Below are positions 34,156 through 50,094 of a stretch of 64,000 nt of DNA, piece by piece. The stretch is from Occultella glacieicola (GTDB lineage: Bacteria; Actinomycetota; Actinomycetes; Actinomycetales; Beutenbergiaceae). Below the pieces are notes generated by a model that worked only from the letters and a program-made list of their open reading frames with translations, was not told the DNA's origin and did no database searches. The first letter of the stretch is position 1, and every line of letters begins with the position of its first letter. The stretch is taken from positions 124,001 through 188,000 of the forward strand of contig NZ_SMNA01000007.1 of assembly GCF_004353825.1 (NCBI RefSeq), written 5' to 3'. The position numbers were made by a program, and so were the translations under genes.

Positions 34156-34179
34156 GACCGTCGGTCCACGTGACCGTGA

Positions 34180-34252
34180 GCGCCCGTAGCTTAATGGATA
34201 GAGCATCTGACTACGGATCAGAAGGTTGGGGGTTCGAGTCCCTCCGGGCGCG
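34180..34252 (+). tRNA. tRNA-Arg(ACG), prophage attachment site
   Basis: A full cloverleaf can be drawn: acceptor GCGCCCG/CGGGCGC, D-arm GCTT..GAGC, anticodon stem TCTGA/TCAGA with loop CTACGGA (anticodon ACG at 34213-34215) and a T-arm with TTCGAGT. CCA is not encoded. Bases from 34214 onward are the att core shared with attR at 50055-50094, so the 3' part was resupplied by the phage on integration and the tRNA stays intact. Confidence 0.95.
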
Positions 34253-34253
34253 C
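34209..34253. repeat. attL (tRNA-Arg 3' part)
   Basis: Positions 34214-34253 are identical to 50055-50094 (40 bp). Extending to 34209 gives 45 bp with one difference: A at 34213, C at 50054. That difference is the first anticodon base, so crossover took place within 34214-34253. It also decides the reading frame of the repressor gene: antisense TAG here, GAG in attP. Confidence 0.93.
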
Positions 34254-34522
34254 TTCACCGATAGACCCCCGTCAGGATCGCCCTGACGGGGGTCTATCCC
34301 GTCTCGGAGCCACACGTAGGGGACGCCGGTCCGCAGTGCCCACAGGCGCATGGTCGCGCCGTTCGGCTTCGATCGACCGTTGATCCAGTTACCAACCGCG
34401 TTGCGGCTGACCTCCAGGTAGTCGCCCATCTCCTGCACCCCGACGTCGGCGTGGCGCAGCGACAGCAGCATCCGATCTGCCAGGTCCGGGACCGGCACTC
34501 GGCCGGCTGTCATCTCACTCAT
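34211..34522 (-). CDS. Prophage immunity repressor with attP inside its 3' end
   Basis: A 103-aa protein with a helix-turn-helix of XRE/Cro type (VGVQEMGDYLEVSRNAVGNW, residues 28-47). Its last 14 codons cross the tRNA att core (RRDSNPQPSDP is the antisense of the tRNA) and stop at TAG 34213-34211, the antisense of the anticodon-loop bases C32-U33-A34. In the excised genome the stop would read GAG and 19 residues, ESEGRSNVVELRPAEERAA, would be added. The start is ATG 34522 or 34513; the frame further upstream is not coding. This is the design of integration-dependent repressors such as that of mycobacteriophage BPs; the function here is inferred. Confidence 0.85.
   Translation of the reverse strand: MSEMTAGRVPVPDLADRMLLSLRHADVGVQEMGDYLEVSRNAVGNWINGRSKPNGATMRLWALRTGVPYVWLRDGIDPRQGDPDGGLSVKRARRDSNPQPSDP
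34261..34297. terminator. Perfect 16-bp hairpin inside the repressor gene, just 3' of the tRNA
   Basis: ATAGACCCCCGTCAGG pairs with CCTGACGGGGGTCTAT over a 5-base loop, with no T-run. It lies 8 bp after the tRNA and may replace the host terminator displaced to 50097-50130. It is also part of the repressor coding sequence, so it would form in the rep-int transcript. Confidence 0.6.
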
Positions 34523-34607
34523 GCATGGAGCATTGCACCTACTCGCGACACGCGCAAGGTCTAGCGGGTATTGACAATGTGATTGTGCAATGCCCATACT
34601 CGCCGAC
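34523..34607. promoter_or_regulatory. Divergent immunity-region promoters with inverted operator motifs
   Basis: Rightward: TTGACA (34571-34576), 18-bp spacer, CATACT (34595-34600), then ATG 34608 seven bases later, i.e. a leaderless transcript. Motif GCATTGCAC occurs at 34529-34537 and as its complement GTGCAATGC at 34585-34593, one near each divergent gene; ACAATGTGATTGT (34574-34586) is a further dyad over the -35. These are the likely repressor/Cro operators. Confidence 0.65.
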
Positions 34608-34799
34608 ATGACCACGACTGCAGCAGAGTTGATCGGCAGCAAGGAAGCATGCCGGCTCCTCGACGTCGACCGGGCAACCCTGGTCCGTCGAGTGTGGGAC
34701 GGCACGCTCACCCCGGTAACGAAGATGCCGGGGAAGAACGGCGCATACGTGTTCGCTCGCGCCGACATCGCCGCGCTCGCCGAGGAGCGTGCGTCGTGA
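34608..34799 (+). CDS. Small HTH protein, Cro/excisionase-like
   Basis: A 63-aa MerR/excisionase-type winged helix (LIGSKEACRLLDVDRATLVR followed by RVWDGTLTP). It is the first gene of the rightward early operon and is divergent from the repressor. ATG 34608 is chosen because the promoter -10 ends 7 bp before it; an in-frame ATG at 34590 lies upstream of the -10. It could be a Cro-like switch or the recombination directionality factor, or both. Confidence 0.8.
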   Translation: MTTTAAELIGSKEACRLLDVDRATLVRRVWDGTLTPVTKMPGKNGAYVFARADIAALAEERAS

Positions 34800-34885
34800 A
34801 GCGCGCCGCCGACCTCGTCGCCCGGGTCGCGCTCGTCTCGGTTCCGCTCGCCGCTGTGCTGCTCGCCGGGTGGTGGGCAGCGTGA
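34796..34885 (+). CDS. 29-aa single-span membrane protein
   Basis: A small ORF starting at GTG 34796, which overlaps the previous stop as GTGA. The product is a short basic head (VKRAADLVAR) followed by one hydrophobic helix. Coupled translation in the early operon supports it. The function is unknown; superinfection exclusion or signalling at the membrane is possible. Confidence 0.5.
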   Translation: MKRAADLVARVALVSVPLAAVLLAGWWAA

Positions 34886-34925
34886 GCGTCGGCCGAGGTT
34901 GCAAGTCACGTAAGGAGGTGATCCC

Positions 34926-34976
34926 ATGTTCGGCTTCTTCTTCGGCCTCTTCGGCTGGGGTGACGAACTCATCTGA
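34926..34976 (+). CDS. 16-aa Phe/Gly-rich micro-ORF with a perfect ribosome binding site
   Basis: AAGGAGGTGAT, an almost full anti-16S match, sits 4 bp upstream of an ATG that opens a 16-codon ORF (MFGFFFGLFGWGDELI, stop TGA). It may be a leader peptide that couples translation to the overlapping downstream gene, or a small toxic or membrane peptide. Very short, so the call rests mainly on the ribosome binding site. Confidence 0.4.
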   Translation: MFGFFFGLFGWGDELI

Positions 34977-35217
34977 CCCCGGAGCCCGGCTCGATCCTCC
35001 TCCCCCGGGGATCGAGCCGGGTGGGATCACCGACAAGACCCGCAAGCACGTGTTCGCCCTGCTGAACAAGCAGGGCATCACCGACCCCGACGTCCAGCGT
35101 CGGGGCATGACGAAGGTCCTCGGTCGCCCGGTCGAGTCCCGGTCGAGCCTCACCGAGGACGAGGGCCGGACCCTCGTCATGGAGCTGCAGGCCCGTGAAC
35201 GGCGGTACGCAAGATGA
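34960..35217 (+). CDS. Small phage protein, early operon
   Basis: The conserved-looking core GGITDKTRKHVFALLNKQGI then TDPDVQRRGMTKVLGRPVES with SLTEDEGRTLV resembles a short helical module found in phage recombination-associated proteins. The start is unresolved: GTG 34960 (used here) or GTG 34882, which overlaps the stop of the 29-aa gene. The stop overlaps the next ATG (ATGA). Confidence 0.65.
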   Translation: MTNSSDPGARLDPPPPGIEPGGITDKTRKHVFALLNKQGITDPDVQRRGMTKVLGRPVESRSSLTEDEGRTLVMELQARERRYAR

Positions 35218-35438
35218 GGCATCACCACACCGAGGCACTCGACGTCGACGTCGACGAGCCCGTCCCCTACGTCCCGACCGACCTCCCCACCGCGCTCGCG
35301 ATGGTCGACCGCCTGGTCCTCGACCTCGCCCTACTCACGGGCGTCCCTGAGTCCGTCATCCGCATCCGGTACGGGGTCGTGTCCACGCCCATCGTGGACA
35401 TGCTCGTCTACGGATCGCCCGATCGGGAGCCGTCATGA
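35214..35438 (+). CDS. Hypothetical phage protein (74 aa)
   Basis: An acidic protein beginning MRHHHTEALDVDVDEP with a helical C-terminal half. Coupled to both neighbours by ATGA overlaps (35214-35217 and 35435-35438). No family recognised. Confidence 0.6.
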   Translation: MRHHHTEALDVDVDEPVPYVPTDLPTALAMVDRLVLDLALLTGVPESVIRIRYGVVSTPIVDMLVYGSPDREPS

Positions 35439-35653
35439 AGGCGACGCTCCGCGCGTTCGGGTGGGTCGCTGACCTCACCATCGGCCCCGTGCCCAAGCCC
35501 GCCGCCCCGCCGCCCGCAGCTCCAGCCGTGGGCACGCACCCGGTGGGTGGCTTGACCTCGTCCGTGGGGCACGGCCCCGGGCAGCGTGTGAACGCACGTA
35601 ACCCGTTCCCGCGTGCCGCCGGATTCCTCCGCAACGAGGAGCCGCCCCGATGA
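35435..35653 (+). CDS. Hypothetical phage protein (72 aa), Pro/Ala-rich
   Basis: A short N-terminal hydrophobic stretch (LRAFGWVADLTIG) followed by a Pro/Ala-rich linker and a basic tail. ATGA overlaps on both sides support it as a real operon member. No function can be assigned. Confidence 0.55.
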   Translation: MKATLRAFGWVADLTIGPVPKPAAPPPAAPAVGTHPVGGLTSSVGHGPGQRVNARNPFPRAAGFLRNEEPPR

Positions 35654-35856
35654 TGACCTACGTCGCGCAATGGCCCGTCCTGGACGATGACGCGCTACTC
35701 AGCGCGCTCAAGGTGGAGGCCCTCACCGACCTGGTCACCATGACGGCCAAGCTGCACCTGGTCCTCGTGGGCAACCCCGAGTGGGAGACGTCCGAGGTCG
35801 CCGGCAAGACGTTCCTAGGCGTGCGTGTCGGCGTCGTGAGGGTGTCAGCGTCGTGA
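35650..35856 (+). CDS. Hypothetical phage protein (68 aa)
   Basis: A mixed helix/strand protein (ALLSALKVEALTDLVTMTAK). It begins in an ATGA overlap and ends in a GTGA overlap with the HNH gene. No family recognised. Confidence 0.55.
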   Translation: MMTYVAQWPVLDDDALLSALKVEALTDLVTMTAKLHLVLVGNPEWETSEVAGKTFLGVRVGVVRVSAS

Positions 35857-36254
35857 CGCCGGAGGAATGGCGCACAGTGCCCACCGCACCCGGCTACGAG
35901 GCATCGAGCCTCGGCCGGGTGCGGAACGCGCGCACGCTGCACGTCCTGAAGCCGCTCAGGCACGACAAGGGCTACCTCAAGGTCAAGTTGGGTCGCGCTC
36001 GCTACGACTACGTCCACAGGATCGTCTGTGAGGCGTTCCACGGCGAGCCGCCGAGTCAGCACGTCCACGATGCCGACCACAAGGACTTCGACCGCGAGAA
36101 CAACCGCCCAGCGAACCTCAGGTGGCTCCCCAAGCACCTGAACGCCTGGAGGTGGGACGGCTACCGCGATCCCGTCGAGGACGAGCCGTTCGAGCCGATC
36201 ACCGAGGCCGAGGGCAAGCAGCTCGACGCCGCCATGGCGAAGGCCGGGTGGTAG
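35853..36254 (+). CDS. NUMOD4/HNH homing-type endonuclease
   Basis: A 133-aa protein with an N-terminal NUMOD4-like module (EEWRTVPTAPGYEASSLGRV) and an HNH core (YDYVHRIVCEAFHG, DADHKDFDRENNRPANLRWL). Such free-standing nucleases are common in phages and often behave as homing genes. The GTG start overlaps the previous stop. It ends the early operon; a 291-bp non-coding stretch follows. Confidence 0.88.
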   Translation: MTPEEWRTVPTAPGYEASSLGRVRNARTLHVLKPLRHDKGYLKVKLGRARYDYVHRIVCEAFHGEPPSQHVHDADHKDFDRENNRPANLRWLPKHLNAWRWDGYRDPVEDEPFEPITEAEGKQLDAAMAKAGW

Positions 36255-36545
36255 CAGCACACGAACACGCAGTACGGCGTTCCTGCCTCTCCCGCCGCAG
36301 AAGCACACCAGAGAGGTCCGGCATACAGGTTGACCCGGGAACGGCCCGGGCCGGGTGCTCAGACACCGCGCGCAAACTCACCGTCTGGTCACTCGTCAGC
36401 ACAGCTCGCTCTCAAATCGAGAGCGGGCCATTCGTGTTGGCCGAGAGGGTATATCGGCTGATGGTTACCGGGAACTGGGGAAGGGGAGCCGCTCCGGGGA
36501 CAGCCCTCGCGCAGCGAGGTCCATCGATCAGTGGAGGTGAGCAGC
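36255..36545. other. Non-coding gap between early and late phage genes, with a hairpin
   Basis: No convincing ORF. GCTCTC/GAGAGC with loop AAATC forms a hairpin at 36408-36424, and a TATATC hexamer lies at 36450-36455 without a clear -35. This is a plausible place for early termination and a late promoter. Confidence 0.4.
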
Positions 36546-36797
36546 ATGGACGACATCACGAGGGACCACCTCGGTCGGATGGTGTGCGACCACGAGACTC
36601 CAGGTGGTGCGCCCAAGTGCCCACTCTGCCGCCGGATCGTCCTCGACCTCCACGCCCCGAGCGATGCGAAGGTCAAGGCATGGCGCAGGCGGAACCGCGC
36701 CGGCACCCCGATGCCCGACTGGTTCAAGCAGCAGCTCACTCAGATGACCGAGCCCAAGCCCGAGCATCCCGACCTCCTCGATGGAGGTGCGTGGTGA
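36546..36797 (+). CDS. Small Cys-containing phage protein before the HNH gene
   Basis: An 83-aa protein with a possible zinc-binding cluster (VCDHETPGGAPKCPLCRR) and a charged helical tail. ATG 36546 has GGAGGTGA 6 bp upstream. It precedes the packaging genes, where a small terminase might be expected, but no such similarity is visible. Confidence 0.65.
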   Translation: MDDITRDHLGRMVCDHETPGGAPKCPLCRRIVLDLHAPSDAKVKAWRRRNRAGTPMPDWFKQQLTQMTEPKPEHPDLLDGGAW

Positions 36798-37087
36798 CCG
36801 GGGCATGGTCTGGACGGGTGGTGATGAACGAGCGTGCCCGCCTGGCGAAGCGGCTACCCGCGCCGTGCTGTCGGTGTGGCAAGCCGGTGCTGCCCGGGCA
36901 GAAGTGGCACGTGGACCACTACCCGATCCCGCGTGAGTTCGGCGGCACCGAGACTCACCCGGCCCACGAGCACTGCAACACCAGCGAGGGTGGCAAGCGC
37001 GGCGCGGCGATCACGAACGCACGACGACAACCGACCGCGTCGGCCGCGATGCGACCCGAGCGAGACCGAGGGATCAGAGGGATATGA
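36794..37087 (+). CDS. HNH endonuclease of the packaging module
   Basis: A 97-aa HNH protein: zinc-binding CCRCGKPVLPG, catalytic HVDH at 39-42 and the terminal HCNTSEGGKRG. HNH proteins directly upstream of a terminase large subunit assist cos-site cleavage in HK97-type phages. GTG 36794 overlaps the previous stop and its own stop overlaps terL (ATGA). Confidence 0.9.
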   Translation: MTGAWSGRVVMNERARLAKRLPAPCCRCGKPVLPGQKWHVDHYPIPREFGGTETHPAHEHCNTSEGGKRGAAITNARRQPTASAAMRPERDRGIRGI

Positions 37088-38634
37088 AGCATCTGACCGA
37101 CACCAAACCGGCGACACTTTTTGAGTTCGGCACGGAAGTCCTCGCATGGCGTCCCCTCCCGTTCTCTCCCTACCCCATCACGCGAGGTGGGCGACGTCGG
37201 GCCAAGCCAACATTCATCTCACGCATACCGCGCGACACGAACATAGCGACAGCGGTCAAGGGTGCCGACCTGTTCAAGTTGCCGATCACGACGCAGGGCG
37301 AGCAGGTCGCCGGGGTCCTGGAGTCGCTCGCCCCGGACGGGACCCCGTTGTATCCAACGGTCGCGATCCTCATGCCTAGACGTTCGACCAAGACCACCTC
37401 GATCTGGAATGTTCTCCTCGGCCGCTGCTACGCCCACCCTGGCTACAAGGTGGTCACGACGGCGCAGGACGGGATTCGCGCCCGGAACAAGTTCCGCGAG
37501 GTCCAGCGTGCTCTCGACGCGTTCGGGTTCAAGGAGCGCGGACTGGGCAAGCTCTACTGGGGCAACGGGTTCGAAGCGATCGAGTGGGCGAACGGGTCGA
37601 GGATGTGGGTGGTCCCACCCGACGCCGCCGCGTTCCGGTCCGAAGCTGCTGACTGCATGCTCTTCGATGAGGCCGGCGAACTGGACGAGGCGACGTCCGA
37701 GGACCTCGTCGCGGGTGCTCTGCCGCTCATGGACACCCGCCCGATGGGTCAGGTCATCATCACCGGCACCCCGTCACCGCGCCGGGCCGCCCTCCTGTGG
37801 GACACCCTCCAGGAGGGCCGCGACCGCAAGAAGCGTGACGTCGGGATCGTGGACTACTCGCTCCGTGACGACGAACCGTCCGTGCTCTACCCCGATGGTG
37901 AGGACTCCGAACCGGTCCTGAACGAGAAGCTGCTCTACCGGGTGCACCCCGGCATCGGCACCCTGACCACCATCAAGAAGATGCGCGCCCGGTTCGCGAA
38001 GATGACCCTGGTCAAGTTCGAGGCCGAGTACTTCTGCCGGTTCCCGACCGACCACACCGTGACCGCGATCAACCCAGCGAAGTGGGACACCGCCCGCGCC
38101 GAGGTCCTCCCGGTCCGGCCCGACCGCGTCGGCCTGGCGTTCGACGTCGCCCCGGACTCATCCGCCGCCGCCCTGGTCGCGGCGTGGCGAGACGAGGACG
38201 GCCGCGCCCATATCGAGGTGATCGGCTACCGGTCCGGCGTCGCGTGGCTCCCCGGCGCGGGCAAGGCCGCGGCGATCAAGCACCGGTGCGCGGTCGCCTA
38301 CGACGTGATCGGTGCGAACACGAACCCGGCCGACACCATGCACCGGTCCCGCGTCCAGGTCACCGGCTACAACATCCGCCACCAGCAAGGCGCACAGCAG
38401 CGGTTCGTCGACGAGCTCGACCGCGAGAACCTGACCCACTACGACCAGACCGACCTCAACCTCGCGGCCGAGGGTGCGAACTGGCGCAACGTGAACGAGG
38501 GCGGTCGCCTGTTCGGGAGGAAGGCATCCGCGTCCGACGTGTCCCCGATCGTCGCCGCCGCCCTGGCGCTCTGGCAGTACGACCAGGTCCCCGACCGCCA
38601 ACCCATGAAGATCCGTACCACCGCGACACGCTGA
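37084..38634 (+). CDS. Terminase large subunit
   Basis: A 516-aa packaging motor. The ATPase has an adenine-binding/Walker A region MPRRSTKTT (98-106; lysine present, the usual Gly-rich loop reduced) and Walker B CMLFDEAGE (191-199). The RNase-H-like nuclease domain begins at LAFDVAP (D354). Coupled to the HNH gene. No small-subunit gene was identified, which is often the case in very small actinophages. Confidence 0.92.
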   Translation: MKHLTDTKPATLFEFGTEVLAWRPLPFSPYPITRGGRRRAKPTFISRIPRDTNIATAVKGADLFKLPITTQGEQVAGVLESLAPDGTPLYPTVAILMPRRSTKTTSIWNVLLGRCYAHPGYKVVTTAQDGIRARNKFREVQRALDAFGFKERGLGKLYWGNGFEAIEWANGSRMWVVPPDAAAFRSEAADCMLFDEAGELDEATSEDLVAGALPLMDTRPMGQVIITGTPSPRRAALLWDTLQEGRDRKKRDVGIVDYSLRDDEPSVLYPDGEDSEPVLNEKLLYRVHPGIGTLTTIKKMRARFAKMTLVKFEAEYFCRFPTDHTVTAINPAKWDTARAEVLPVRPDRVGLAFDVAPDSSAAALVAAWRDEDGRAHIEVIGYRSGVAWLPGAGKAAAIKHRCAVAYDVIGANTNPADTMHRSRVQVTGYNIRHQQGAQQRFVDELDRENLTHYDQTDLNLAAEGANWRNVNEGGRLFGRKASASDVSPIVAAALALWQYDQVPDRQPMKIRTTATR

Positions 38635-38637
38635 GCC

Positions 38638-38681
38638 GCAATGCGCAAATAGTGGGCAATGCACAGAAGCGGCGCTATGCT
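38638..38681 (+). promoter_or_regulatory. Candidate leaderless late promoter with operator-like motifs
   Basis: GCAATGC occurs twice (38638-38644 and 38656-38662), matching the core of the immunity-region operator. TGGGCA (38653-38658), 17-bp spacer and TATGCT (38676-38681) precede ATG 38689 by 7 bp, the same -10-to-ATG geometry as at 34608. This suggests direct repressor control of capsid genes. Confidence 0.5.
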
Positions 38682-38688
38682 CCTGCCC

Positions 38689-39729
38689 ATGGGCATCCGG
38701 AGTGTGTTCGACCTCGCTAGTCGGGTCGCGTCCGGGACTGCCCTGCCCAAGACCACCCGGCTCGCGTCGCCCTACGCCGGGGCGAACACCCTGACCAAGG
38801 TCGCGGTCGCGGACATGTGGGGCGAGGACGGTCCGCTGTTCGCGACCTACCTCGACGCGATGCGCGTCCCGGCGATCGTCAAGGGCCGAGCACTGATCGT
38901 CGGCACCCTCTCCCGGCAGCCGCTCGCGAAGTTCCGAGGCTCCGAAAAGGTCAAGTCCGACCCGTGGATGTACCGGACCTCGACCGCACAGAACCCGCAG
39001 GCACGGATGCTCTGGACCATCGATGACTGCATCATGTACGGCTCGTCCCTGTGGGCTGTCCAGCGTGGCAGCAAGGAGCAGATCACGGATGCGATCCGGG
39101 TCCTGCCCGATGAGTGGGAACTGGACGACGACCTCCGGATCAAGGTCCGAGGCCAGAAGGTCGACGCCGATGAAGTGATCCTGTTCGAGGGTCCGCAGCT
39201 TGGCCTGCTCGAAATCGCCGCCGCCGACATTCGCGCCTCGATCGCGATGGGCCGCTCGTGGGCGCAGCGGGTCGACTCCCCGGTCCCGCTCGTCGCACTC
39301 AAGATCGAGGACGCGAACCACGAACCCACGGACGACGAGGCTGACCAACTGATCGAGAGTTGGGAGACTGCGCGCCGTAAGGGCGGCACTGCGCTCCTGC
39401 CCTACGGCCTCGGCATGGACGTTCACGGCGAGACGCCCACCGACCTGTACGTCAACGGTCGCAACGCTGCCCGCCTGGACTGGGCGAACTACCTCGCGTT
39501 GCCGGCGTCCCTGCTCGACGGGTCCACCGCGACCGCGTCGCTCACGTACTCCACGAAGCAGGACTCCCGGAACGAACTCGTGGATTTGTCCCTCGCCTAC
39601 TGGGCGACCCCGATCGAGGCGCGCCTGTCCCAGGACGACGTCGTCCCCTCCGGCACCCGAACCGCGTTCGACCTCGAATATCTCGCATCCCCGACCCAGC
39701 CGACCCAGTCGCCGGCCCGAGAGGACTGA
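38689..39729 (+). CDS. Portal protein (HK97 family)
   Basis: A 346-aa portal protein. HK97-type portal features include the N-terminal VASGTALPKTTRLASPYAGA, the central DEVILFEGP and the C-terminal LALPASLLDGSTATASLTYS. It forms the dodecameric DNA entry ring. ATG 38689 (MGIRSVFDLA) is chosen from three in-frame ATGs because it fits the leaderless promoter. Confidence 0.88.
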   Translation: MGIRSVFDLASRVASGTALPKTTRLASPYAGANTLTKVAVADMWGEDGPLFATYLDAMRVPAIVKGRALIVGTLSRQPLAKFRGSEKVKSDPWMYRTSTAQNPQARMLWTIDDCIMYGSSLWAVQRGSKEQITDAIRVLPDEWELDDDLRIKVRGQKVDADEVILFEGPQLGLLEIAAADIRASIAMGRSWAQRVDSPVPLVALKIEDANHEPTDDEADQLIESWETARRKGGTALLPYGLGMDVHGETPTDLYVNGRNAARLDWANYLALPASLLDGSTATASLTYSTKQDSRNELVDLSLAYWATPIEARLSQDDVVPSGTRTAFDLEYLASPTQPTQSPARED

Positions 39730-39731
39730 CC

Positions 39732-41339
39732 ATGACCACCATGAAGATCGCGGGGACACTCCTCGCAACCGACGCGGGCGACCGCACCCTGACCTACCTC
39801 CTGGCCCCGTTCGGCGAGCCGGGCCGCACGAACCTCGGGAAGGTCACCCTGACCGCGTCGTCCTTCACGGTCCCCGAGGACGTGACCGACCTCGGCATCA
39901 ACGTCGAACACGAACGCACGACGCCGGTCGCGAAGTTCGCCCGGGTCGAGGCGACCGACGCCGGCTATGAGGCCGACGTCCGGTTCCTCGCCACGAGGGC
40001 CGGTGACGACGCCCTGACCGAGGCCCGCGAGGGTGTCCGCAAGGGCATCAGCGTGGAGGTAGACCAGCCGGTGATCCGCGACGGGAAGATGCTCGCCGGC
40101 CTGCTCTCCGGGGCCGGCCTGTGCGTCACCCCGGCGTTCACCTCCGCGCAGCTCGTCGCCGCCGACGCCGGGGAACTGCCGGACCACATGGCCGACACCG
40201 ACTCCGAGACCGTCTCCACCGAGACGATCACGATCGACGGCAAGGAGTACGTCCGCAAGACCACGTCCAAGTACACCTCCGAGACCACGCCCGTGGCCTC
40301 GGCCGACGACCCCACCGAGGGCGACGATGAAGGAGACAACACCATGGGTGACACCACCCTCGCCGCGTCGGCCCCGGCCGGCGGCCCCGCCGCGATGCGC
40401 GGCAAGTCCGGCCCGAAGATCGATTCGGCCGAGTCGCTGTTCGCGACCCTCGCGAAGGCGTTCGCGGCCGACGACCGGCAGATGCTCGCCGCCCTGGACC
40501 AGGGCATCGCCGCCGACCTCGCGTCGGCGCAGCAGCCGCAGTGGGCCGGTGAGGTGTGGGCCCGCCGCACGCACCGTCAGCGGTTCATCCCGCTGTTCAC
40601 CTCCGGGCCGCTGAACGCCCTCAAGATCACCGGGTGGAAGTTCGCGCCCCGGTCGGGCACGGCGCCGCAGCCGCCGGCCACGCCGACCGTGGCGACCTAC
40701 GCCGGCTACCCGGCCGAGCCGAACTCGACCGAGGTCAAGACCGGGCCGGTCACGATCACCGCGTCCCGGCTCGCCGGGGCGAACGAGTTCGACCGGGCGT
40801 TCGTGGACTTCGACACCCCGGAGTTCTGGGCCGGGTTCTTTCGTGAGTCCGCGAACGACCTGTCCCGCAAGCTCGACACGGCGGCCGAGACGCACCTGTT
40901 CACCTCGGGCAACTACGTCGAGGTCGACGGCGGGACCGTCCCGTCCGGGGTCTCGACCGCCGCGGCCTACATCGTGGACGGGGTCCTCGCGATCCAGGAC
41001 GTGGCCGTCCCGGACTTCGCGGTCATCGGTGTGGACCTGTGGCGTGAGTTCGCCCTGACCCGCAAGGACGACGCCCTGGAGTACCTGAGCGCGATGCTCG
41101 GACTCGACCCCGCCGAGGGCCGGTTCGACACGTTCAAGTTCATCCCGTCCAGCCACGCCAGCGTGGCCGGGTCCGTGCTCGTCGGAGCGTCCGACTCGCA
41201 CACCTTCTACGGCCCCAAGACCGTCCGGGCCTCCACGGTCGACATCGCCAAGGGTGGCGTGGTGGAGGGCCTGTTCGGGTACTACGCCGCGAACACCGGC
41301 TCCGACAGCGCGTTCGCCCTCGTCGCCGCCGCCGCGTGA
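39732..41339 (+). CDS. Capsid maturation protease-major capsid protein fusion
   Basis: A 535-aa protein. Residues 1-170 are a U35/HK97-type prohead protease with H60 (NVEHERTTPVAKF) and S107 (GISVEVD). An acidic Thr/Ser-rich linker (about 180-205) leads to an HK97-fold major capsid protein with the delta-like helical segment (ESLFATLAKAFAADDRQ) and the core ITASRLAGANEFDRAFVDF. Such fusions are reported in small actinophages. M205 is a second, in-frame start with its own ribosome binding site. Confidence 0.9.
   Translation: MTTMKIAGTLLATDAGDRTLTYLLAPFGEPGRTNLGKVTLTASSFTVPEDVTDLGINVEHERTTPVAKFARVEATDAGYEADVRFLATRAGDDALTEAREGVRKGISVEVDQPVIRDGKMLAGLLSGAGLCVTPAFTSAQLVAADAGELPDHMADTDSETVSTETITIDGKEYVRKTTSKYTSETTPVASADDPTEGDDEGDNTMGDTTLAASAPAGGPAAMRGKSGPKIDSAESLFATLAKAFAADDRQMLAALDQGIAADLASAQQPQWAGEVWARRTHRQRFIPLFTSGPLNALKITGWKFAPRSGTAPQPPATPTVATYAGYPAEPNSTEVKTGPVTITASRLAGANEFDRAFVDFDTPEFWAGFFRESANDLSRKLDTAAETHLFTSGNYVEVDGGTVPSGVSTAAAYIVDGVLAIQDVAVPDFAVIGVDLWREFALTRKDDALEYLSAMLGLDPAEGRFDTFKFIPSSHASVAGSVLVGASDSHTFYGPKTVRASTVDIAKGGVVEGLFGYYAANTGSDSAFALVAAAA
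40330..40346 (+). promoter_or_regulatory. Internal ribosome binding site and start within the capsid fusion gene
   Basis: AAGGAGA at 40330-40336 lies 7 bp before ATG 40344, which is in frame with the fusion (Met205, MGDTTLAASAP). It is at the protease/capsid junction, so translation here would give free capsid subunits. Confidence 0.65.
40344..41339 (+). CDS. Predicted free major capsid protein from internal start
   Basis: Initiation at 40344 would make a 331-aa major capsid protein without the protease domain. This would give the large excess of capsid over protease that assembly requires from a single gene. It is a predicted second product of the same frame, not a separate locus. Confidence 0.55.
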   Translation: MGDTTLAASAPAGGPAAMRGKSGPKIDSAESLFATLAKAFAADDRQMLAALDQGIAADLASAQQPQWAGEVWARRTHRQRFIPLFTSGPLNALKITGWKFAPRSGTAPQPPATPTVATYAGYPAEPNSTEVKTGPVTITASRLAGANEFDRAFVDFDTPEFWAGFFRESANDLSRKLDTAAETHLFTSGNYVEVDGGTVPSGVSTAAAYIVDGVLAIQDVAVPDFAVIGVDLWREFALTRKDDALEYLSAMLGLDPAEGRFDTFKFIPSSHASVAGSVLVGASDSHTFYGPKTVRASTVDIAKGGVVEGLFGYYAANTGSDSAFALVAAAA

Positions 41340-41373
41340 CCGACCGATGAGCGAACCGGGAGGAGGTGAACAG

Positions 41374-41715
41374 GTGGTGGACTGGTTGACACCCGTGGAG
41401 GTAGTCACGGATGCGTACTGGCCGTCGTGCCCGTTGGTGCCCGCCGACGAGGTCGATGCCAAGGCGCTGGACCGCCTGCTCACCTCCGCCCGGATCCAGT
41501 GCGAGGAGTTCGCGCCCACCCTCGCCGAGGGTGCCGACGTCCCGGAGAACTGGCGGCTCGCGCAAGCATTCCAAGCCCGGGCCCTGTACCGGTCGGCCCG
41601 GGCCGGGTCTCAGGACCGGCTCGGGGAGGACGGGCTGGCCGTCACCGTGTTCCCGATGGACTGGACCGTGAAGAACCTCCTGCGGCCCAAGCGCGGAAAG
41701 TTCGTGGTCCGATGA
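41374..41715 (+). CDS. Head-tail connector protein (gp6-like)
   Basis: A 113-aa helical protein (MVDWLTPVEVVTDAYWP, LLTSARIQCEEFA) at the position and size of HK97 gp6-type adaptors. GTG 41374 with AGGAGG 7 bp upstream is preferred to the ATG at 41347. The stop overlaps the next gene (ATGA). Confidence 0.75.
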   Translation: MVDWLTPVEVVTDAYWPSCPLVPADEVDAKALDRLLTSARIQCEEFAPTLAEGADVPENWRLAQAFQARALYRSARAGSQDRLGEDGLAVTVFPMDWTVKNLLRPKRGKFVVR

Positions 41716-42080
41716 GCCTCGCGACCGACGTCGCCGACGACCTCCGGGTGCGCCTCGGCAAGCCCTACGTAGTGAGGGGGTTCCTGCCCACGGTCGACGC
41801 AGTCCCCCACCCGACCGTCGCGGTCTGGCAGACCCGAGTCGTGAAGGCCCCGCTCCTCGGGCACAACGTCCTCCAGTTCGAAATCACCGTCCAGGTGATC
41901 GTCGGGGAGGAGGACATGGCCGCCGCAGACCGCGCCCTCGACGTCGCACTACTGGACGTCCTGGACGCACTCCAGCGGATCAGTCTCGTGGACTGGACCG
42001 GGGCCGACCGTGTCGTCCGTGAGGACGCTCACCACGCCTACAACATCAACTGTCAAGCCCTCGCCAAGATCGGAGAATGA
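41712..42080 (+). CDS. Tail terminator / neck protein
   Basis: A 122-aa alpha/beta protein (SLATDVADDLRVRLGKPYVV, LQFEITVQVIVG) in the usual place of the tail terminator, just before the major tail gene. Overlaps both neighbours by ATGA. The assignment is by size, pattern and order. Confidence 0.65.
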   Translation: MSLATDVADDLRVRLGKPYVVRGFLPTVDAVPHPTVAVWQTRVVKAPLLGHNVLQFEITVQVIVGEEDMAAADRALDVALLDVLDALQRISLVDWTGADRVVREDAHHAYNINCQALAKIGE

Positions 42081-42505
42081 CCATGGCCGTCGTGCCCATC
42101 ACCAGCCCGTACTCCCTCAAGAACGCCGCCCTCACCATCGACGTGGACGACTTCACCGCCGCTGTCTCCCAGGTCCAGTTCAACCCGCGCACCCAGTCCT
42201 CGACCTGGCGCGGCATCAGCGGGAACACCATCCGCGACCAGGCCGTGGCCGAGTGGGACTGCCAGCTCGGCCTCGCGCAGGATCTCGCCCCCAGTGGTCT
42301 GCTCCGCTACCTCCTCGACCACGACGGCGAGCAGAAGGACGTCGTGTTCACCCCCGTCGAGACCGAGGGCGGGAACGACCTCACGATCGAGGCGACCCTG
42401 GTCATCAGCGCGGCGACCATCGGTGGCACCGCCGGAGCGGACGTGACGACCGCGACCGCGACGTGCGCGGTCATCGGCAAGCCCGAGTTCGTCGACCCGA
42501 CCTGA
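42077..42505 (+). CDS. Major tail protein
   Basis: A 142-aa beta-rich protein (LTIDVDDFTAAVSQVQFNPR, WRGISGNTIRD, AVAEWDCQLGLAQD) with the pattern of small siphophage tail-tube proteins. It follows the neck gene with an ATGA overlap; a small hairpin lies directly after its stop. Confidence 0.82.
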   Translation: MTMAVVPITSPYSLKNAALTIDVDDFTAAVSQVQFNPRTQSSTWRGISGNTIRDQAVAEWDCQLGLAQDLAPSGLLRYLLDHDGEQKDVVFTPVETEGGNDLTIEATLVISAATIGGTAGADVTTATATCAVIGKPEFVDPT

Positions 42506-42506
42506 C

Positions 42507-42525
42507 CGTCAACTGAGGGTTGACG
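42507..42525 (+). other. Small hairpin in the major-tail/next-gene junction
   Basis: CGTCAAC pairs with GTTGACG around loop TGAGG. The loop holds the only Shine-Dalgarno-like bases for ATG 42528, so it may tune the drop in expression after the highly expressed tail-tube gene. Confidence 0.5.
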
Positions 42526-42527
42526 TC

Positions 42528-43046
42528 ATGTTGAGCGTGGAGGACCACCGCGAGCTGCAAGCTGCTGTGCTCGCGTTGAAGGCTGCCCCGCGTGCGCTCA
42601 GGACGGCGATCAACAAGACCACCCGGGAGACGATGAACCCGGAGTGGAAGGCCCTCGTCTCGGCGAACGCATCCGGCCTCCGGAACCCCGGGAGCCGGGT
42701 GCTCACGTCCGGGGCGAAGATCAAGGCCGGTAACCCTCCGGTCGCGCAGGCCGCGCAGTCCCGCCGGGGGATCGGCGAGGGCAAGCGGCTCGTCCCGAAC
42801 GAGCACTACTTCCTGTGGGAGTTCGGTGTCGGGAACCCGGAGAAGGTCTCGACCTACACCCGCAAGTCCAAGAACGGCGGCACCCACCAGGTGCGTCGCC
42901 GCACGAACCGGGGCAAGCCGCGCCTGGTCAAGGCGGGCCGAGTGTTCTACCCGGCGTTCGCTGAACTCGCACCCCGCATGGTCTCCCTGTGGGTGCAGAC
43001 CATCGTGAAGATTTACGCCGACGCACTGGAGGGGAACCGTGGCTAA
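42528..43046 (+). CDS. Head-tail joining-like protein (HK97 gp10-like)
   Basis: A 172-aa basic protein (LQAAVLALKAAPRALRTAIN, TRETMNPEWKALV at the N-terminus) resembling HK97 gp10-like proteins. Its place between the major tail and tape measure genes is unusual: there one expects tail assembly chaperones with a -1 frameshift, and none are seen. It overlaps the tape measure gene by 8 bp. Confidence 0.6.
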   Translation: MLSVEDHRELQAAVLALKAAPRALRTAINKTTRETMNPEWKALVSANASGLRNPGSRVLTSGAKIKAGNPPVAQAAQSRRGIGEGKRLVPNEHYFLWEFGVGNPEKVSTYTRKSKNGGTHQVRRRTNRGKPRLVKAGRVFYPAFAELAPRMVSLWVQTIVKIYADALEGNRG

Positions 43047-44613
43047 GGGCCTCAACCTTGAGTTCGTCGCCGACGTCCGCCGCTTCATCGCCGGCACGGA
43101 CGACATCGAACGCAGCCTTGACGAGGTCTCCGACTCGCTCGACACCATGGCCCGCGACGCCGACCGGGCCGGCGACAAGGTCAGCGACTCCCTGGAGCAG
43201 GTCGGCGACGACGCGAAGGACGCCGGCCGCGACCTCGAGCGCGGCCTGGAGGACGGCACCGACGCAGCCGCCGACGAGGCCACCCGCCTGGAGCGCACGT
43301 TCAAGGACACGTTCGACACGGTCAAGCGTGAGTCCAAGGGTGCCGGTGACGACGTCTCCCGGAACACCAAGCGCGGCATGGACGACGCCGCCGACTCCAC
43401 CGAGACCTTCAAGAACGAAGCCCGGCAGAACCTGTCCGAGTCCGTGTCATCGTTCCGTGGCGACGTCGAGGACATCCCGCAGCTCGTCCAGGACGTGTTC
43501 GGCGGGGTCGCCGCCGACCTCGGCCCCGCCGGCCTGATCGGCGGCACCCTCGTCGCCGCCGGCATCGGCCTCGGCGTCGCCTACCTCCAGGGTGCCGCCG
43601 AGAAGGCCGAGGAACTGAAGGACCACACCATCGACCTCGCGAAGCAGATTCAGGAGGTCGGCGGGGACCTGAACCGGCTCGACCTCGGCGCGATCTTCGA
43701 TGACTGGGCGTTCGCGATCGGCGACACCAAGGAGTTCTGGGAGGTCTGGCAGAACGCCCCGATCACGAACGTTGAGCAAATGGCGACTGCGATGGACGCG
43801 CTCGGGGTGTCGGCCACCGACATGTATGCCGCACTCACCGACCCCAACGGGCCCGAGGGGCAACGCATCCTTGAGCAGATCATCGACACCCTCGCGAACA
43901 CAGGCGGCATGTCCGACGAGACCACGAACGCGCTCGTGCACATGCGCGACGCGATCCGCGACGGGAACCTGTCCCTGGAGGACGCCACCGAACTCCAGCA
44001 GACCTACCAGGCCGCGATCGAGGGAACCACGGTCGAGGCGATCAAGGCCCGGGAGGCGGAGGAGGAGCTACGCGAGGAGCGGGAGACTTCCCGCGACGTG
44101 CTGTTCGGGTTGAACGACGCCACCGCCGGGTACTACGAAGCGCTCCAGGCCGCGAACGAGGCCCTGTCCGAGAATGGTGCCGGGCTGAACCTCGCCACTG
44201 AGCGGGGCCGCGAGAACCAGGCCGCGCTCGACGCGCAGGCGCAGGCGTCCTACGACTACATCCAAGCCCTGATCGACTCCGGTGCCGCCGAGGACGACGT
44301 GACCACCGCCGTCGACCAGCACCGTGCCGCGCTCCGAGAGCAAGCCACACAGATGGGCATGACCGAGACGCAGGCGCAGACCTACATCGACACCATCCTC
44401 GGCACCCCGAGCAACATCAACACCACGTTCAACGTGACCGACAACGGCACCGCCGCCGCGACCGAGCAGCGGATCAACAACATCCCGTCCAGCCTCCGCG
44501 TGCCCGTGAACGTGGACGGGGCCGGCCTCCAGGGCCAACTGGACGAGCAGCTCCGCCGCCTCCGCGTCAACGCGATTCAGGCACCCCTACGCATCGGGAC
44601 GAGGGTGGCGTAA
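43039..44613 (+). CDS. Short tape measure protein
   Basis: A 524-aa protein: a long heptad-rich helical N-terminal half (DIERSLDEVSDSLDTMARDA and onward), a hydrophobic membrane-active centre (GLIGGTLVAAGIGLGVAYLQ) and a further helical part. It sets tail length; by the approximate rule of 0.15 nm per residue the tail would be about 75-80 nm. GTG 43039 has GAGGGG upstream. Very short for a siphophage. Confidence 0.85.
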   Translation: MAKGLNLEFVADVRRFIAGTDDIERSLDEVSDSLDTMARDADRAGDKVSDSLEQVGDDAKDAGRDLERGLEDGTDAAADEATRLERTFKDTFDTVKRESKGAGDDVSRNTKRGMDDAADSTETFKNEARQNLSESVSSFRGDVEDIPQLVQDVFGGVAADLGPAGLIGGTLVAAGIGLGVAYLQGAAEKAEELKDHTIDLAKQIQEVGGDLNRLDLGAIFDDWAFAIGDTKEFWEVWQNAPITNVEQMATAMDALGVSATDMYAALTDPNGPEGQRILEQIIDTLANTGGMSDETTNALVHMRDAIRDGNLSLEDATELQQTYQAAIEGTTVEAIKAREAEEELREERETSRDVLFGLNDATAGYYEALQAANEALSENGAGLNLATERGRENQAALDAQAQASYDYIQALIDSGAAEDDVTTAVDQHRAALREQATQMGMTETQAQTYIDTILGTPSNINTTFNVTDNGTAAATEQRINNIPSSLRVPVNVDGAGLQGQLDEQLRRLRVNAIQAPLRIGTRVA

Positions 44614-45980
44614 TGGCGACCAGGACCAACCTCATCCGGAACCCCTCAGCCGAGATCGACACCGCGAACGCGTCGCAGAAGGGCGAGTTCTCAAGCACGC
44701 TTGCGCGTTCCACGGACCGGGCGTGGACCGGCATCGCCTCGTTCAAGGTCACCTCTACCGGTATTGGGCAACTAGAGCACAAGAAGCAGCTCGGTATGGC
44801 TGCCTGGGTTGACCCGGTTGCACCCGGAACCACGGTCAATGTCAAGGCGCGCATCTACGTTCCCGGCACCAACCAGCACGGTCCGAGGTATGTGTTCTGG
44901 TACCACCACCATCCCGCCACTGAGACACACAGTGAGGGATGGGTCTATGCCGGCAGTGACGGGGATATGCAGGTGAACACCTGGATAACCCACGACAGGA
45001 CGATGACCTCCGAGGTCTACATGATCGACGGCTACGCCGTCGTGGTCACGAACGACAGTGATGGGCCTTGGGCCGCCGCCGACGTTGTTTACTTCGATGG
45101 GCTCCAGGCCGAACTCGGTACCGAGTCCGGGGAGTACTTCGACGGGGACACCCTCGACACCCTGGAGTACGCCTTCAACTGGTCCGGCACCCCGCACAAC
45201 TCCGAGTCCACCATGGACTGGATCGGGCCTACCCTGTTCACCGCAACACCGGACCCGGCCAACGGGAACATCCTCCTGGACATCACCCCGGGCACCAGCT
45301 CGACCGTGGACGCGATCACCCGCACCGACGCCAACGGAACGCACCCGGTCCGGCTACTGCCGAACCAGCTGCCGACCCCGTCGCAGCTCATCGTGCGCGA
45401 CTACGAGGCCGCCCTGACCGGCCCGGTCACGTATACCCTGACCGGTGCCGGTGGTTCCCAGGTGACGACGTCCCTCGGGTCGGATCACCCGTGGCTGTTC
45501 GTGCCCGTCTATCCGCAGTTCTCCGCCGCCGTGGAGTCCGTCACCGGGTACACCTCGGACCGGGCCACCCAGACCACCGTGCACCAGGTGATCGGCCGCC
45601 CGGACCCGCTCGTCACGATCGGTCGCCTCCAGACCAGGGCCGGGACCCTGGAGATTTGGTGCGCCTCCCACGCCGACGCGCTCACCGTCCAGAACGTCTA
45701 CAGCCTCGGGCACGCCGTGATGCTCCGCCAGGTCGAGCACGCCGGCCTGGACATGTACCACTTCGCCCGGGCCGTCACCGTCGACCCGTTCGCCCCTCAG
45801 GGTGCCCGCACCCGGTGGCGGGTCGCGGTCGACTACGTCGAGGTCAACCGTCCCACGGCCGACCTCGCCGGTTCCCTCGGGTGGAACTACTCCGAGCTGG
45901 CCGCCGCGCACACGTCCTACTTCGAAGTCGCGTTCACCTACGCGGACTACAACGCCCTCCTAGTCGGACCACTCACATGA
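44613..45980 (+). CDS. Minor tail protein with carbohydrate-binding-like N-terminus
   Basis: A 455-aa protein. The N-terminal 190 residues (TRTNLIRNPSAEIDTANASQ, RIYVPGTNQHGPRYVF, DVVYFDGLQAE) look like a CBM-type jelly-roll common in actinophage tail proteins. The C-terminal part resembles a distal tail or baseplate hub (VTVDPFAPQGARTRWRVAVD). It starts in a TAATG overlap. It probably contacts the cell wall glycan. Confidence 0.75.
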   Translation: MATRTNLIRNPSAEIDTANASQKGEFSSTLARSTDRAWTGIASFKVTSTGIGQLEHKKQLGMAAWVDPVAPGTTVNVKARIYVPGTNQHGPRYVFWYHHHPATETHSEGWVYAGSDGDMQVNTWITHDRTMTSEVYMIDGYAVVVTNDSDGPWAAADVVYFDGLQAELGTESGEYFDGDTLDTLEYAFNWSGTPHNSESTMDWIGPTLFTATPDPANGNILLDITPGTSSTVDAITRTDANGTHPVRLLPNQLPTPSQLIVRDYEAALTGPVTYTLTGAGGSQVTTSLGSDHPWLFVPVYPQFSAAVESVTGYTSDRATQTTVHQVIGRPDPLVTIGRLQTRAGTLEIWCASHADALTVQNVYSLGHAVMLRQVEHAGLDMYHFARAVTVDPFAPQGARTRWRVAVDYVEVNRPTADLAGSLGWNYSELAAAHTSYFEVAFTYADYNALLVGPLT

Positions 45981-47107
45981 CCGCCCCGTTCATGGAGCAG
46001 GCCGCCACCGCGATCAACGAACCGATCACGCACGTGTGGCGGATCGAGGCGTGGCCTCCCGGCGCGACCGAGGGCATCCCGTTGGCCGTGAACAACGGCA
46101 CCCTCACCTACGACGAGGCGTGGGCCCCGCACGTGCAGGCGTCCCTGCAATGCCAGGTCCCGACCGACCAGGCCACCCTCGACGCCCTCGACCCCCGAAC
46201 CAACTGCCGCATCCATATCTACCTCGGGTACGTCTACCAGCGCGGCACCGAGGACGTGCACCTCATCGCCGACCTCGGACTGTTCGCCCGGACCGTGAAC
46301 CGGCCGCAAAACACCATGGACCTGTCGGCGATGTCGGACGAGATACGCCTACTCTCGAACGCCTGGTTGGGTGGTGCCCAACCGCCCAAGACGGGTGCCG
46401 CCGAGGCCCTCGTCTGGACGATCAACGCCGGCCTTGACCCGATCAACGCGGGCAGCATCGACACGCAGATCGGAACCGAGGTCGCGGCCGACCAGCTCAC
46501 CGAACTCGCGATCGGGTACGGCGACTCCTACGGGTCGCTGTTCACCACCATTCAGGACTCCACCGAGACGTGGGCCTACTGCCCGGGTGCGGTCGCCGGG
46601 CACTGGGTGATCCGATACCGGCCCACTCTGGCGGGCCGCTCGGCAGCCCAGTTCACCACGGGTCCCGGTGGGAACGTGTTCGAGTCCGAGGCCGACCTGT
46701 CCCGCGAGGACTGGCACAACGCGGTTCTCGTCCGGCACCGGTGGAAGGACACCGGCGGCACCGATCACGAGGTGCGCGGCATCGCGGTCATCAACTCCGG
46801 TGCCCATGGGGCCGTCAGTGTCGGCCGTCACGTCCTGACCATCGACCGCACCACGCCGACCAGCCAATCCGCCGCCGACGCCGCGGCCGCCGCGAAGGTC
46901 CGCCGCACCATCAGCCGAGGGCGTCAGTTCAATGTCAGCGTCCCGGCCGCGTACTGGGTGCGCCCCGGTCACACCGTGACCATCCAGTTGCCCACAGGCC
47001 CGCAGGAACGCCACCTCGTGGCATCCGTCGAGTTCCGGTTCCCCTCTGGGGACATGTCCGTCCGAACCCGCGTCCCCGAGAACGTCACCATCACGGAAGG
47101 TGAATGA
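45977..47107 (+). CDS. Minor tail / baseplate protein
   Basis: A 376-aa beta-rich protein (ITHVWRIEAWPPGATEGIPL, GRHVLTIDR, FNVSVPAAYWVRPGHTVTIQ) with the pattern of a tail hub protein (gp27/siphovirus tail component type). ATG 45977 overlaps the previous stop (ATGA); the long upstream extension of the frame is a shadow of the preceding gene. Confidence 0.7.
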   Translation: MTAPFMEQAATAINEPITHVWRIEAWPPGATEGIPLAVNNGTLTYDEAWAPHVQASLQCQVPTDQATLDALDPRTNCRIHIYLGYVYQRGTEDVHLIADLGLFARTVNRPQNTMDLSAMSDEIRLLSNAWLGGAQPPKTGAAEALVWTINAGLDPINAGSIDTQIGTEVAADQLTELAIGYGDSYGSLFTTIQDSTETWAYCPGAVAGHWVIRYRPTLAGRSAAQFTTGPGGNVFESEADLSREDWHNAVLVRHRWKDTGGTDHEVRGIAVINSGAHGAVSVGRHVLTIDRTTPTSQSAADAAAAAKVRRTISRGRQFNVSVPAAYWVRPGHTVTIQLPTGPQERHLVASVEFRFPSGDMSVRTRVPENVTITEGE

Positions 47108-47110
47108 CCC

Positions 47111-47542
47111 ATGCCCAGCACACCCGCAGGACTGCCCTACCCGTCCGGGAACGACCAGCCCAACGTGCCCTACGACGTGCAGCAGCTCGCCGAGGCGCTC
47201 GACCCCATGGTCAACGACACTGGATGGGTGCCCATCGATGTGTACGCCGGCTACGAGACCAAGTCCGGGACCCCCGCCGTCCGACGCATCGGCCCCGTCG
47301 TGTACGCCCGGGGCGTGATCGGTCCCACGGCCGGCACCATGGCCGCCTCCCAGACCGTCTATATCGGGCGGGTGCCAGTAGGGTTCCGTGTCGCCGAGTC
47401 GCTCTGGTTCGCGGCCGGCACCACGGCGGGTCAGCCTGCCGCAACCCTGGTCCAACTCTCGGACGGGCAGATTCAGGCCCGGACGCCGAACCTCGCTGTG
47501 TCCTACGTGGGTCTGTCCAGCATGAGTTACCCGGTCGACTGA
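47111..47542 (+). CDS. Putative tail fibre / tip protein
   Basis: A 143-aa protein with an N-terminal baseplate-type tag (GLPYPSGNDQPNVPYDVQQLAE) and a beta-rich receptor-binding-like domain (GWVPIDVYAGYETKSG, VVYARGVIGPTAGTM). The tag is typical of small actinophage tail fibres. Its stop overlaps the endolysin start (TGATG). Confidence 0.7.
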   Translation: MPSTPAGLPYPSGNDQPNVPYDVQQLAEALDPMVNDTGWVPIDVYAGYETKSGTPAVRRIGPVVYARGVIGPTAGTMAASQTVYIGRVPVGFRVAESLWFAAGTTAGQPAATLVQLSDGQIQARTPNLAVSYVGLSSMSYPVD

Positions 47543-48270
47543 TGCGCACCCCAACCCAGGCCGTCGAGTGGGCGAACCGGGTCAAGGCCGGCTACTCCGG
47601 CTACTGCCTCCAGTTCGTCCGGTCCGCGTTCGGCGTCGCCGCGAAGCACGCCAGCGCGAAGGACGCGTGGCTCGCCACCACCCGCCGCCACACCGACCGC
47701 ACCCCACCCGCCGGGGTGCCCGTGTGGTTCTCGTTCGACTCCGGCGTGAACCGCAACTACTGGCACGTCGCGATCAGCCTCGGAGGCGGCCGCATCCGCA
47801 CGACCTCCTACCCCCGGTCCGGCGTCGTCGGCAACACCACCATCACCGGACTGGAAAAGGCGTGGTCCGGCGTCGGCACCACCTACCTCGGCTGGTCCGA
47901 GGACATCAACGGGGTCCGGGTCTACACCCCCGCCGCCCCGCCGCCCGCACCATCCGCCCCGAGTCCTGAGGAGGACGACATGCCCACAGTTGGAGAAATC
48001 TGGTCCGCCGAGTTCGGACGAGGAGACCGCCGCATCACTGCCGGCGACCTCATCACGCAGGTGGACGACATCCTCGCCGAGGTCGCCGACCTCCGCGTCG
48101 AGGTAGGCAACATCACCAAGATCGTCGCGAGCCTCGACACCAGCGAATCCAGGGTCAAGCAGCTCTACGACCGCCGCACCTCGATCGACAAGATCGGGCC
48201 GCTGCTCGACCGGGTCGACGCCCTCGCCGACCTGGTCGAGAAGGCCCTCACCAACAACCGGGAGGTCTGA
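47542..48270 (+). CDS. CHAP-domain endolysin
   Basis: A 242-aa lysin. The CHAP domain has catalytic C22 (GYSGYCLQFVRSAFG) and H75 (YWHVAISLGGGRI). After a Pro/Ala linker (140-146) a helical C-terminal domain follows (ITQVDDILAEVADLRVEVGN), possibly for multimerisation or wall binding. An in-frame ATG at 47980 with GAGGAGG upstream could make the C-terminal part alone. Confidence 0.88.
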   Translation: MRTPTQAVEWANRVKAGYSGYCLQFVRSAFGVAAKHASAKDAWLATTRRHTDRTPPAGVPVWFSFDSGVNRNYWHVAISLGGGRIRTTSYPRSGVVGNTTITGLEKAWSGVGTTYLGWSEDINGVRVYTPAAPPPAPSAPSPEEDDMPTVGEIWSAEFGRGDRRITAGDLITQVDDILAEVADLRVEVGNITKIVASLDTSESRVKQLYDRRTSIDKIGPLLDRVDALADLVEKALTNNREV

Positions 48271-48272
48271 CC

Positions 48273-48470
48273 ATGGACGAGTACACACCCAAGGTCCCCG
48301 ACCGGGTCCGCACGTGGGCCTACGGCGTCGGCATCGGCCTCGGCCTCGGTGCCGCACCCGCGCTGCTCGCCCTCAACCAGCCGGCCCTCGCCGGGGTCGC
48401 CGCCGCCCTGGCCGGCGCAGCGAACGCCCTCGCGTTCGGCTACCGACCCACCCGGCCCAGCGCAAGCTAA
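48273..48470 (+). CDS. Holin
   Basis: A 65-aa protein with two hydrophobic segments (VGIGLGLGAAPALLALN, LAGVAAALAGAANALAFGY) and a basic C-terminus, directly after the endolysin. Fits a small class II holin. Confidence 0.75.
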   Translation: MDEYTPKVPDRVRTWAYGVGIGLGLGAAPALLALNQPALAGVAAALAGAANALAFGYRPTRPSAS

Positions 48471-49523: not shown

Positions 49524-49525
49524 CG

Positions 49526-49998: not shown

Positions 49999-50049
49999 GC
50001 CGCACGCTCCTCGGCGGGCCGCAGCTCGACCACGTTCGAGCGGCCCTCA

Positions 50050-50094
50050 GACTCCGGATCAGAAGGTTGGGGGTTCGAGTCCCTCCGGGCGCGC
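50050..50094. repeat. attR
   Basis: The 40-bp core 50055-50094 equals 34214-34253. Immediately upstream, 50054 is C where the tRNA has A, and 49995-50053 holds the severed 3' end of the long repressor frame (18 codons plus TGA). This is a tRNA 3' fragment, not a functional tRNA gene. Confidence 0.93.

Follow-up and report, generated by a model that had tools for sequence, protein, structure and literature searches.

A putative BPs-type integration-dependent immunity switch in a 15.8-kb actinobacterial prophage, with a terminator-like hairpin on the antisense strand of its repressor gene

Integration-dependent immunity has been described for phages of clusters G, N and P, in which, as far as the accessible text of the description goes, the repressor and integrase genes are co-transcribed, attP lies in the repressor gene, both proteins carry ssrA-like tags and the base adjoining the core creates a stop (PMC9262239). 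For BPs, the available part of the published account gives repressor forms of 103 and 136 residues, the longer being inactive through degradation by its tag, and puts the operator in the -35/-10 spacer of the early promoter (PMC4557955). Excerpts of two further papers report that small temperate Gordonia phages of about 17 kb use integration-dependent immunity, an extra gene in GMA5 being remarked on (PMC5559632), and that the tail of the Bifidobacterium prophages Bb423phi2 and 689b-1 was reconstructed in silico, with 18 extra residues and an ssrA-like tag (PMC6109161). The kind of switch is therefore already known, small phages included, and the prophage analysed here, found in a 64-kb stretch of DNA (hereafter the window), is a further case according to these portions of the literature. 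We consider it highly probable from its sequence that this 15.8-kb actinobacterial prophage carries a BPs-type switch.

The sole tRNA gene that ARAGORN finds in the window is a tRNA-Arg(ACG) at 34180..34253 on the plus strand. Its last 40 bases, the attL copy of the att core (34214..34253), recur as an exact direct repeat in the attR copy (50055..50094), the preceding base being A at attL and C at attR. The excised unit (34214..50054) measures 15,841 bp, and the very small prophage of the original prediction is borne out as 15.8 kb between exact 40-bp repeats. In all three same-genus genomes searched the site is empty, the left flank and the tRNA being followed by a hairpin that by eye looks like its terminator; in the window, host sequence matching this continuation begins only at 50095, 15.8 kb from the tRNA. 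Because the site is uninterrupted in these three genomes, the att ends in the window are real prophage ends. The tRNA is intact at attL, and both ARAGORN and the empty-site comparison identify attB as the tRNA gene. The native terminator hairpin of the tRNA, assigned by eye from the same arrangement directly behind the tRNA in the three genomes, is displaced to the host side of attR (50098..50129, plus strand). DNA similarity behind the empty site ends after 26 bp in these genomes, and a beta-lactamase-like ORF, identified by eye, lies just outside attR (50196-51116, minus strand).

The repressor gene occupies 34211..34522 on the minus strand in its lysogen form and encodes 103 aa with an HTH_3 domain (Pfam); it matches the phrog_2328 transcriptional repressor (E 2e-22), and a solved-structure search returned only general HTH proteins (repressors, antitoxins, regulators and one designed protein). 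As originally predicted, and now confirmed to the base, the frame runs through the att core and stops at TAG 34213-34211, a codon made with bases that the host supplies from the anticodon loop of the tRNA (positions 32-34). When the sequence ending at 50054 is joined in silico to the core, as in attP, the TAG codon becomes GAG and 19 residues, ESEGRSNVVELRPAEERAA, are added before a TGA at 49997-49995, exactly the codon change and tail that had been proposed. The resulting protein of 122 aa ends EERAA (...VVELRPAEERAA), and its attP-only tail, ESEGRSNVVELRPAEERAA plus TGA, is left in the prophage as a 3′ remnant of the repressor gene at 49995..50054 (minus strand). The repeat and the reconstructed frame, together with the empty-site comparison, place attP inside the repressor reading frame. 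With LAA or similar as the test for an ssrA-like end, the RAA of the attP form qualifies, unlike though it is to the LAA of the tag encoded by the host tmRNA (ADSKRTDFALAA). ClpXP degrades such ssrA-like ends and the host genome has ClpX; ClpXP may degrade the attP-form repressor of this prophage.

In the attP form, the TGA of the repressor overlaps the ATG of a 62-aa ORF (49810..49998, minus strand), whose own TGA shares one base with the ATG of the gene for a 94-aa HTH protein (49526..49810, minus strand), and this gene stands between the repressor and a tyrosine integrase of 273 aa (48702..49523, minus strand). Over 79 aa, the 94-aa protein shares 53% identity with GMA5 gene 18, likewise located between rep and int, so that within the order rep-ORF-HTH-int the order rep-HTH-int is homologous to that of GMA5. 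The overlapping stops and starts, together with this GMA5-like order, indicate that the extended frame belongs to an operon which only the attP form has, and repressor and integrase would share this one predicted operon across attP. The integrase itself has the C-terminus ...VLAIA and ends in AIA, not in AA, which is the integrase end in 17 of the 31 distinct free relatives.

On its other side the repressor gene is separated by an intergenic control region (34523..34607) from a divergent gene for a small HTH protein (34608..34799, plus strand; HTH_17, excisionase/Cro-like). This region contains TTGACA-18-CATACT (34571-34600, plus strand), a consensus match that is the sole promoter-like match within 34100-35300; the divergent ORF as listed begins at 34590, and its in-frame ATG at 34608 comes after the -10 match. 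Three short repeats suggest candidate operators here. Two of them, ATTGACAAT at 34570 and ATTGTGCAAT at 34582, are the only ATTG-N1/2-CAAT matches in the window, and the third, GCATTGCAC, has two copies in the 64 kb, one per strand, at 34530 (+) and 34585 (-), a number reached window-wide in 4 of 100 shuffles. A search for TTGCAC by itself gave fewer sites than chance. The BPs operator, as described in the accessible text (PMC4557955), likewise lies in the -35/-10 spacer of its early promoter.

A search of phage records with the repressor gave 216 matches at E up to 1e-3, the best being cluster P immunity repressors (48.5% identity over 97%). A more distant homologue is found in Angel, which we take to be a relative of BPs. 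Among the integrase matches listed, Barebow is the closest phage one (52.6%), and GMA5, Angel (45.7%) and small Gordonia phages also occur. As in the window, BPs (cluster G) has attP in the repressor gene, a tRNA-Arg target, a 103-aa prophage form and a base adjoining the core that makes the stop, according to the available text (PMC4557955, PMC9262239), and its repressor and integrase are homologous to those of the window via Angel. The viral form of BPs is given there as 136 aa (PMC4557955), whereas that of the window has 122 aa and ends RAA; furthermore, relatives of BPs end KAS and have int directly following, whereas two genes precede int in the window. The tails of the cluster P phages Fishburne and Nazo (VIPL...ELAA) resemble that of the window (VVEL...ERAA), although cluster P mycobacteriophages, at 42-51 kb, are unlike the 15.8-kb prophage and their tRNA-derived segment reads ESNPRPIHY, which indicates another frame or another tRNA.

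Closer in size are the Gordonia phages of cluster CW (GMA5, McGonagall; about 17 kb), small temperate phages with this system in the portion of the description available (PMC5559632); in GMA5 a homologue of the 94-aa HTH gene separates rep from int, whereas the cluster CW target is tRNA-Lys rather than tRNA-Arg. The Bifidobacterium prophages Bb423phi2 and 689b-1 have another host and are likened to the window from their description, as accessible (PMC6109161). Curtobacterium phage Barebow (18.3 kb) has a homologous repressor, annotated merely as an HTH protein, with the tail VVQL...RRAS, and its int follows after 64 bp, unlike in the window. The closest terminase among those listed (39.7%) is that of the Arthrobacter phages Berka and BlueFeather (15-16 kb; cluster FE, of which Berka is presumably a member). 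BlueFeather retains a repressor homologue (54.5% over 66 aa), no integrase was found in the 5.4 kb examined, and its paper, in the part available, suggests that it is not temperate (PMC7954295). BlueFeather (locus L035) and a similar contig (L096) both have a repressor homologue with no adjacent integrase found and no tRNA-derived segment; they are possibly lytic descendants of temperate small phages. Altogether, the BPs-type switch that had been proposed is well supported by repressor and integrase homology and further by gene order, att position, the one-base stop and the Ala-ending tail; the degron, the immunity and the binding to operators are what we infer from sequence.

A single tail would be weak evidence if taken alone, which cannot be said of the pattern across the family. 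A scan based on an alignment of ten sequences yielded 102 entries, 22 from genome loci and 80 from viral contigs, the latter being the best 80 of 103 relatives. Loci with an integrase just downstream and no tRNA over the repressor end were classed as unintegrated (37, with 31 distinct ends) and those with a tRNA over the end as integrated (23, with 22 distinct ends), which leaves 42 unclassed. The original prediction had suggested a search for the extended form in related phages, and such ends recur there: among the 31 distinct unintegrated ends, from the best 80 of 103 viral contigs, AA occurs 20 times, VA 6, AS 4 and VQ once, whereas AA is found in 0 of the 22 distinct integrated ends. Eleven of the 37 unintegrated rows fit none of the tRNA-derived patterns used, and one of these (L066) does carry such a segment. 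As controls we took 116 annotated CDS from 14 phage loci, repressors and integrases excluded; none ends in AA, 18 end in Ala, 4 in [AVT]A and 14 in [AVST][AS]. Nine further repressor-like ORFs (L112-L115, L117-L119, L126 and L128) end in IAA, AAA, VAA or LAA; they lack a tRNA at the end, and no integrase turned up immediately downstream of them.

We also reconstructed attP from prophage pairs. Among 31 repressor loci, 21 had a shared core and 10 did not; two were dropped (L050, with a 15-bp core and a frame that goes no further than the junction, and L013, which is intact and duplicates L009), and L058 was kept despite its 15-bp core. All 19 usable reconstructions end in Ala (AA 11, VA 6, TA 2), one tail being counted in both this and the unintegrated set since L066 and L047 are from the same assembly. 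In that assembly, Brevibacterium permense Ln26, an integrated form (L047, coverage 17) and an attP-form contig (L066, coverage 50) have 127 bases in common, repressor sequence included; reads seem to cross attP there, so that excised or tandem phage DNA is present. On the chromosome of genome G082 (C1:589750-632101; loci L009, L013, L222 and L225-L228), an intact attP-form repressor with a PVAA end stands beside an integrase, four short repressor-like ORFs lie in a row, and a truncated repressor lies in a tRNA-Asn 42 kb away. This looks like a tandem double lysogen, the choice between tandem and single prophage having been considered for G082 only; the accessible part of a published study reports such tandems, with this type of immunity, for M. 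abscessus (PMC9934374).

A later set from further genomes comprised 23 loci, 9 of them without a core and 14 with readable attP forms, of which 12 were reconstructed and two (L189, L196) were already intact beside int. We left out genomes already used, nine weak matches (E 1e-8 to 1e-10), G090 (contig end) and G762, whose integrase match is identical in contig coordinates and score to the one from the genome of L047; the equally weak G200 was retained. These 14 forms end in AA in 8 cases, in [AVT]A in 10 and in Ala in 11. The integrases of the three forms with another end (L190, L213 and L218) do not end in AA either; L190 and L218 (G327, G751) belong to the same genus, a lineage that may have lost the tag or replaced it.

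For 42 loci selected because a tRNA lies at the repressor end, the stop codon of the repressor falls within the tRNA, in most cases in the anticodon loop or beside it, and the tRNAs are Asn(GTT) in 10, Arg(ACG) in 16 (in two frames), Lys in 11, Thr in 4 and Val in 1. The first base that differs past the shared core falls in the repressor stop codon in 20 of 32 pairs, the window included. The motif [VI][VIL]x[LF], chosen after looking, is present in 19 of 51 attP-only tails, with a shuffle mean of 2.0 and 2.6-2.8 in control windows; examples are VVEL (window 50022-50033, minus strand), VIPL and VVPL, with varied codons. It recurs in 4 of the 14 later forms (p 0.006, with two rows lacking a separable tail scored as misses), two of the four hits being close relatives. 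This is only suggestive that the motif may be a further degradation signal.

The tail could be a mere by-product of attP, with both repressor forms stable and active and the C-terminal change without regulatory effect. Degradation is indeed deduced from the sequence and of the 14 later attP forms three end in something other than Ala, yet the recurrence of AA, VA or AS at 30 of the 31 distinct free ends and of Ala in every usable reconstruction, set against AA in none and Ala in 18 of the 116 control CDS, make this very unlikely, as does the longer form of BPs, reported as inactive through its tag in the available text (PMC4557955). Only slightly less improbable is that the prophage is a defective remnant and its switch a fossil. 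It has only 15.8 kb, and megablast found nothing among phage records that resembles it in DNA sequence. Against this, the frames of the terminase (37084), portal (38659), capsid (39732), tape measure (43039), integrase and repressor are all open, a related terminase occurs in isolated phages of 14-17 kb, and the att repeat is exact. In a viral-contig search with the terminase, the sole match was the prophage's own record (IMG/VR 2887560997_000001), in which repressor and terminase are 100% identical to those of the window.

Beside the att core, within repressor coding DNA, we noticed in the window a terminator-like hairpin with a 17-bp perfect stem and a 5-nt loop, read on the tRNA strand (34260..34298, plus strand), which was afterwards tested across loci. 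A stem of at least 9 bp lies within 60 nt behind the tRNA in 35 of 42 integrated loci, the other seven having shorter stems, and in 6 of 126 control windows, which were taken from deeper within the same repressor genes or from the stretch immediately upstream of them. In unintegrated phages the corresponding numbers are 29 of 38, with redundant rows, against 2 of 76. Furthermore, resampling of synonymous codons gave a mean stem of 6.9 bp compared with the 12.1 bp observed, and the stem exceeded this null at p < 0.05 in 31 of 42 loci and at p < 0.01 in 15 of 42 (window p 0.002), p values that are generous because the loci are related by descent. The hairpin is therefore not forced by the protein sequence. 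Near it, the Glu codon of E-x-G is GAA in 12 of 16 cases, compared with 28 of 146 elsewhere. A search of the accessible literature gave three partial matches and no description of such a hairpin, and the word terminator does not appear in the accessible text of two key papers.

The hairpin could instead serve the phage and not the tRNA, as an attenuator in the joint mRNA of repressor and integrase or as a site in attP to which a protein binds; it is located in the repressor mRNA upstream of int, and in the window the stem is about equally strong on both strands (17 bp on the tRNA strand, 18 bp on the repressor strand), with no T run and only 2 T in the 12 nt behind it. Across loci, however, the stem counted with G-T pairs is longer on the tRNA strand in 33 of 42, equal in 5 and shorter in 4, with a mean bias of 4.5 bp compared with 0.8 bp in the synonymous null; T is enriched behind it on the tRNA strand (4.2 vs 3.1 of 12 in 35 loci); and empty sites have a hairpin, by eye, at the same position behind the tRNA. 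We regard a phage-serving role as possible though doubtful, and favour a hairpin that replaces the tRNA terminator displaced by insertion. With moderate confidence, we propose that in integration-dependent phages the repressor gene bears a code on each strand, such that the codons of a Pro/Gly-rich linker (for example PDGPDGG) beside the att core form an antisense intrinsic terminator in place of the one that insertion takes from the host tRNA. Integration would then provide, at a single stroke, a stable repressor, a stop codon from the tRNA anticodon region and a new tRNA terminator protecting the repressor gene against antisense transcription, and the second tail motif may be a degradation signal.

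Under the BPs-type model, the repressor, 62-aa ORF, HTH protein and integrase would be expressed in an infecting phage from one operon reading through attP, and the 122-aa repressor with its Ala-Ala tail would be degraded by a ClpXP-type host protease, so that the lytic genes run. If the integrase acts, crossover in tRNA-Arg would remove the tail, a single host base adjoining the core changing GAG to TAG, and the presumably stable 103-aa repressor would hold the divergent promoter via operators between the two genes. Insertion also deprives the tRNA of its terminator, and the antisense hairpin behind the core may end the tRNA transcript and keep it from running against the repressor gene.

Taken together, these results describe a very small, well-bounded lysis/lysogeny switch that would be set by genome location and not by a CII-like regulator, and extend this switch computationally to actinobacterial prophages that occupy tRNA-Arg, -Lys, -Asn, -Thr and -Val. 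The proposal of such a switch is right in kind, its function being predicted; what is new here is the antisense terminator-like hairpin in repressor coding DNA beside the att core, and this possible second code, carried by the repressor gene's opposite strand, is the part worth following. If the role of the hairpin holds true, one 100-bp stretch would serve as repressor, tRNA half, recombination site, source of the stop codon and terminator, which would explain the conserved linker and limit the tRNAs usable for such phages.
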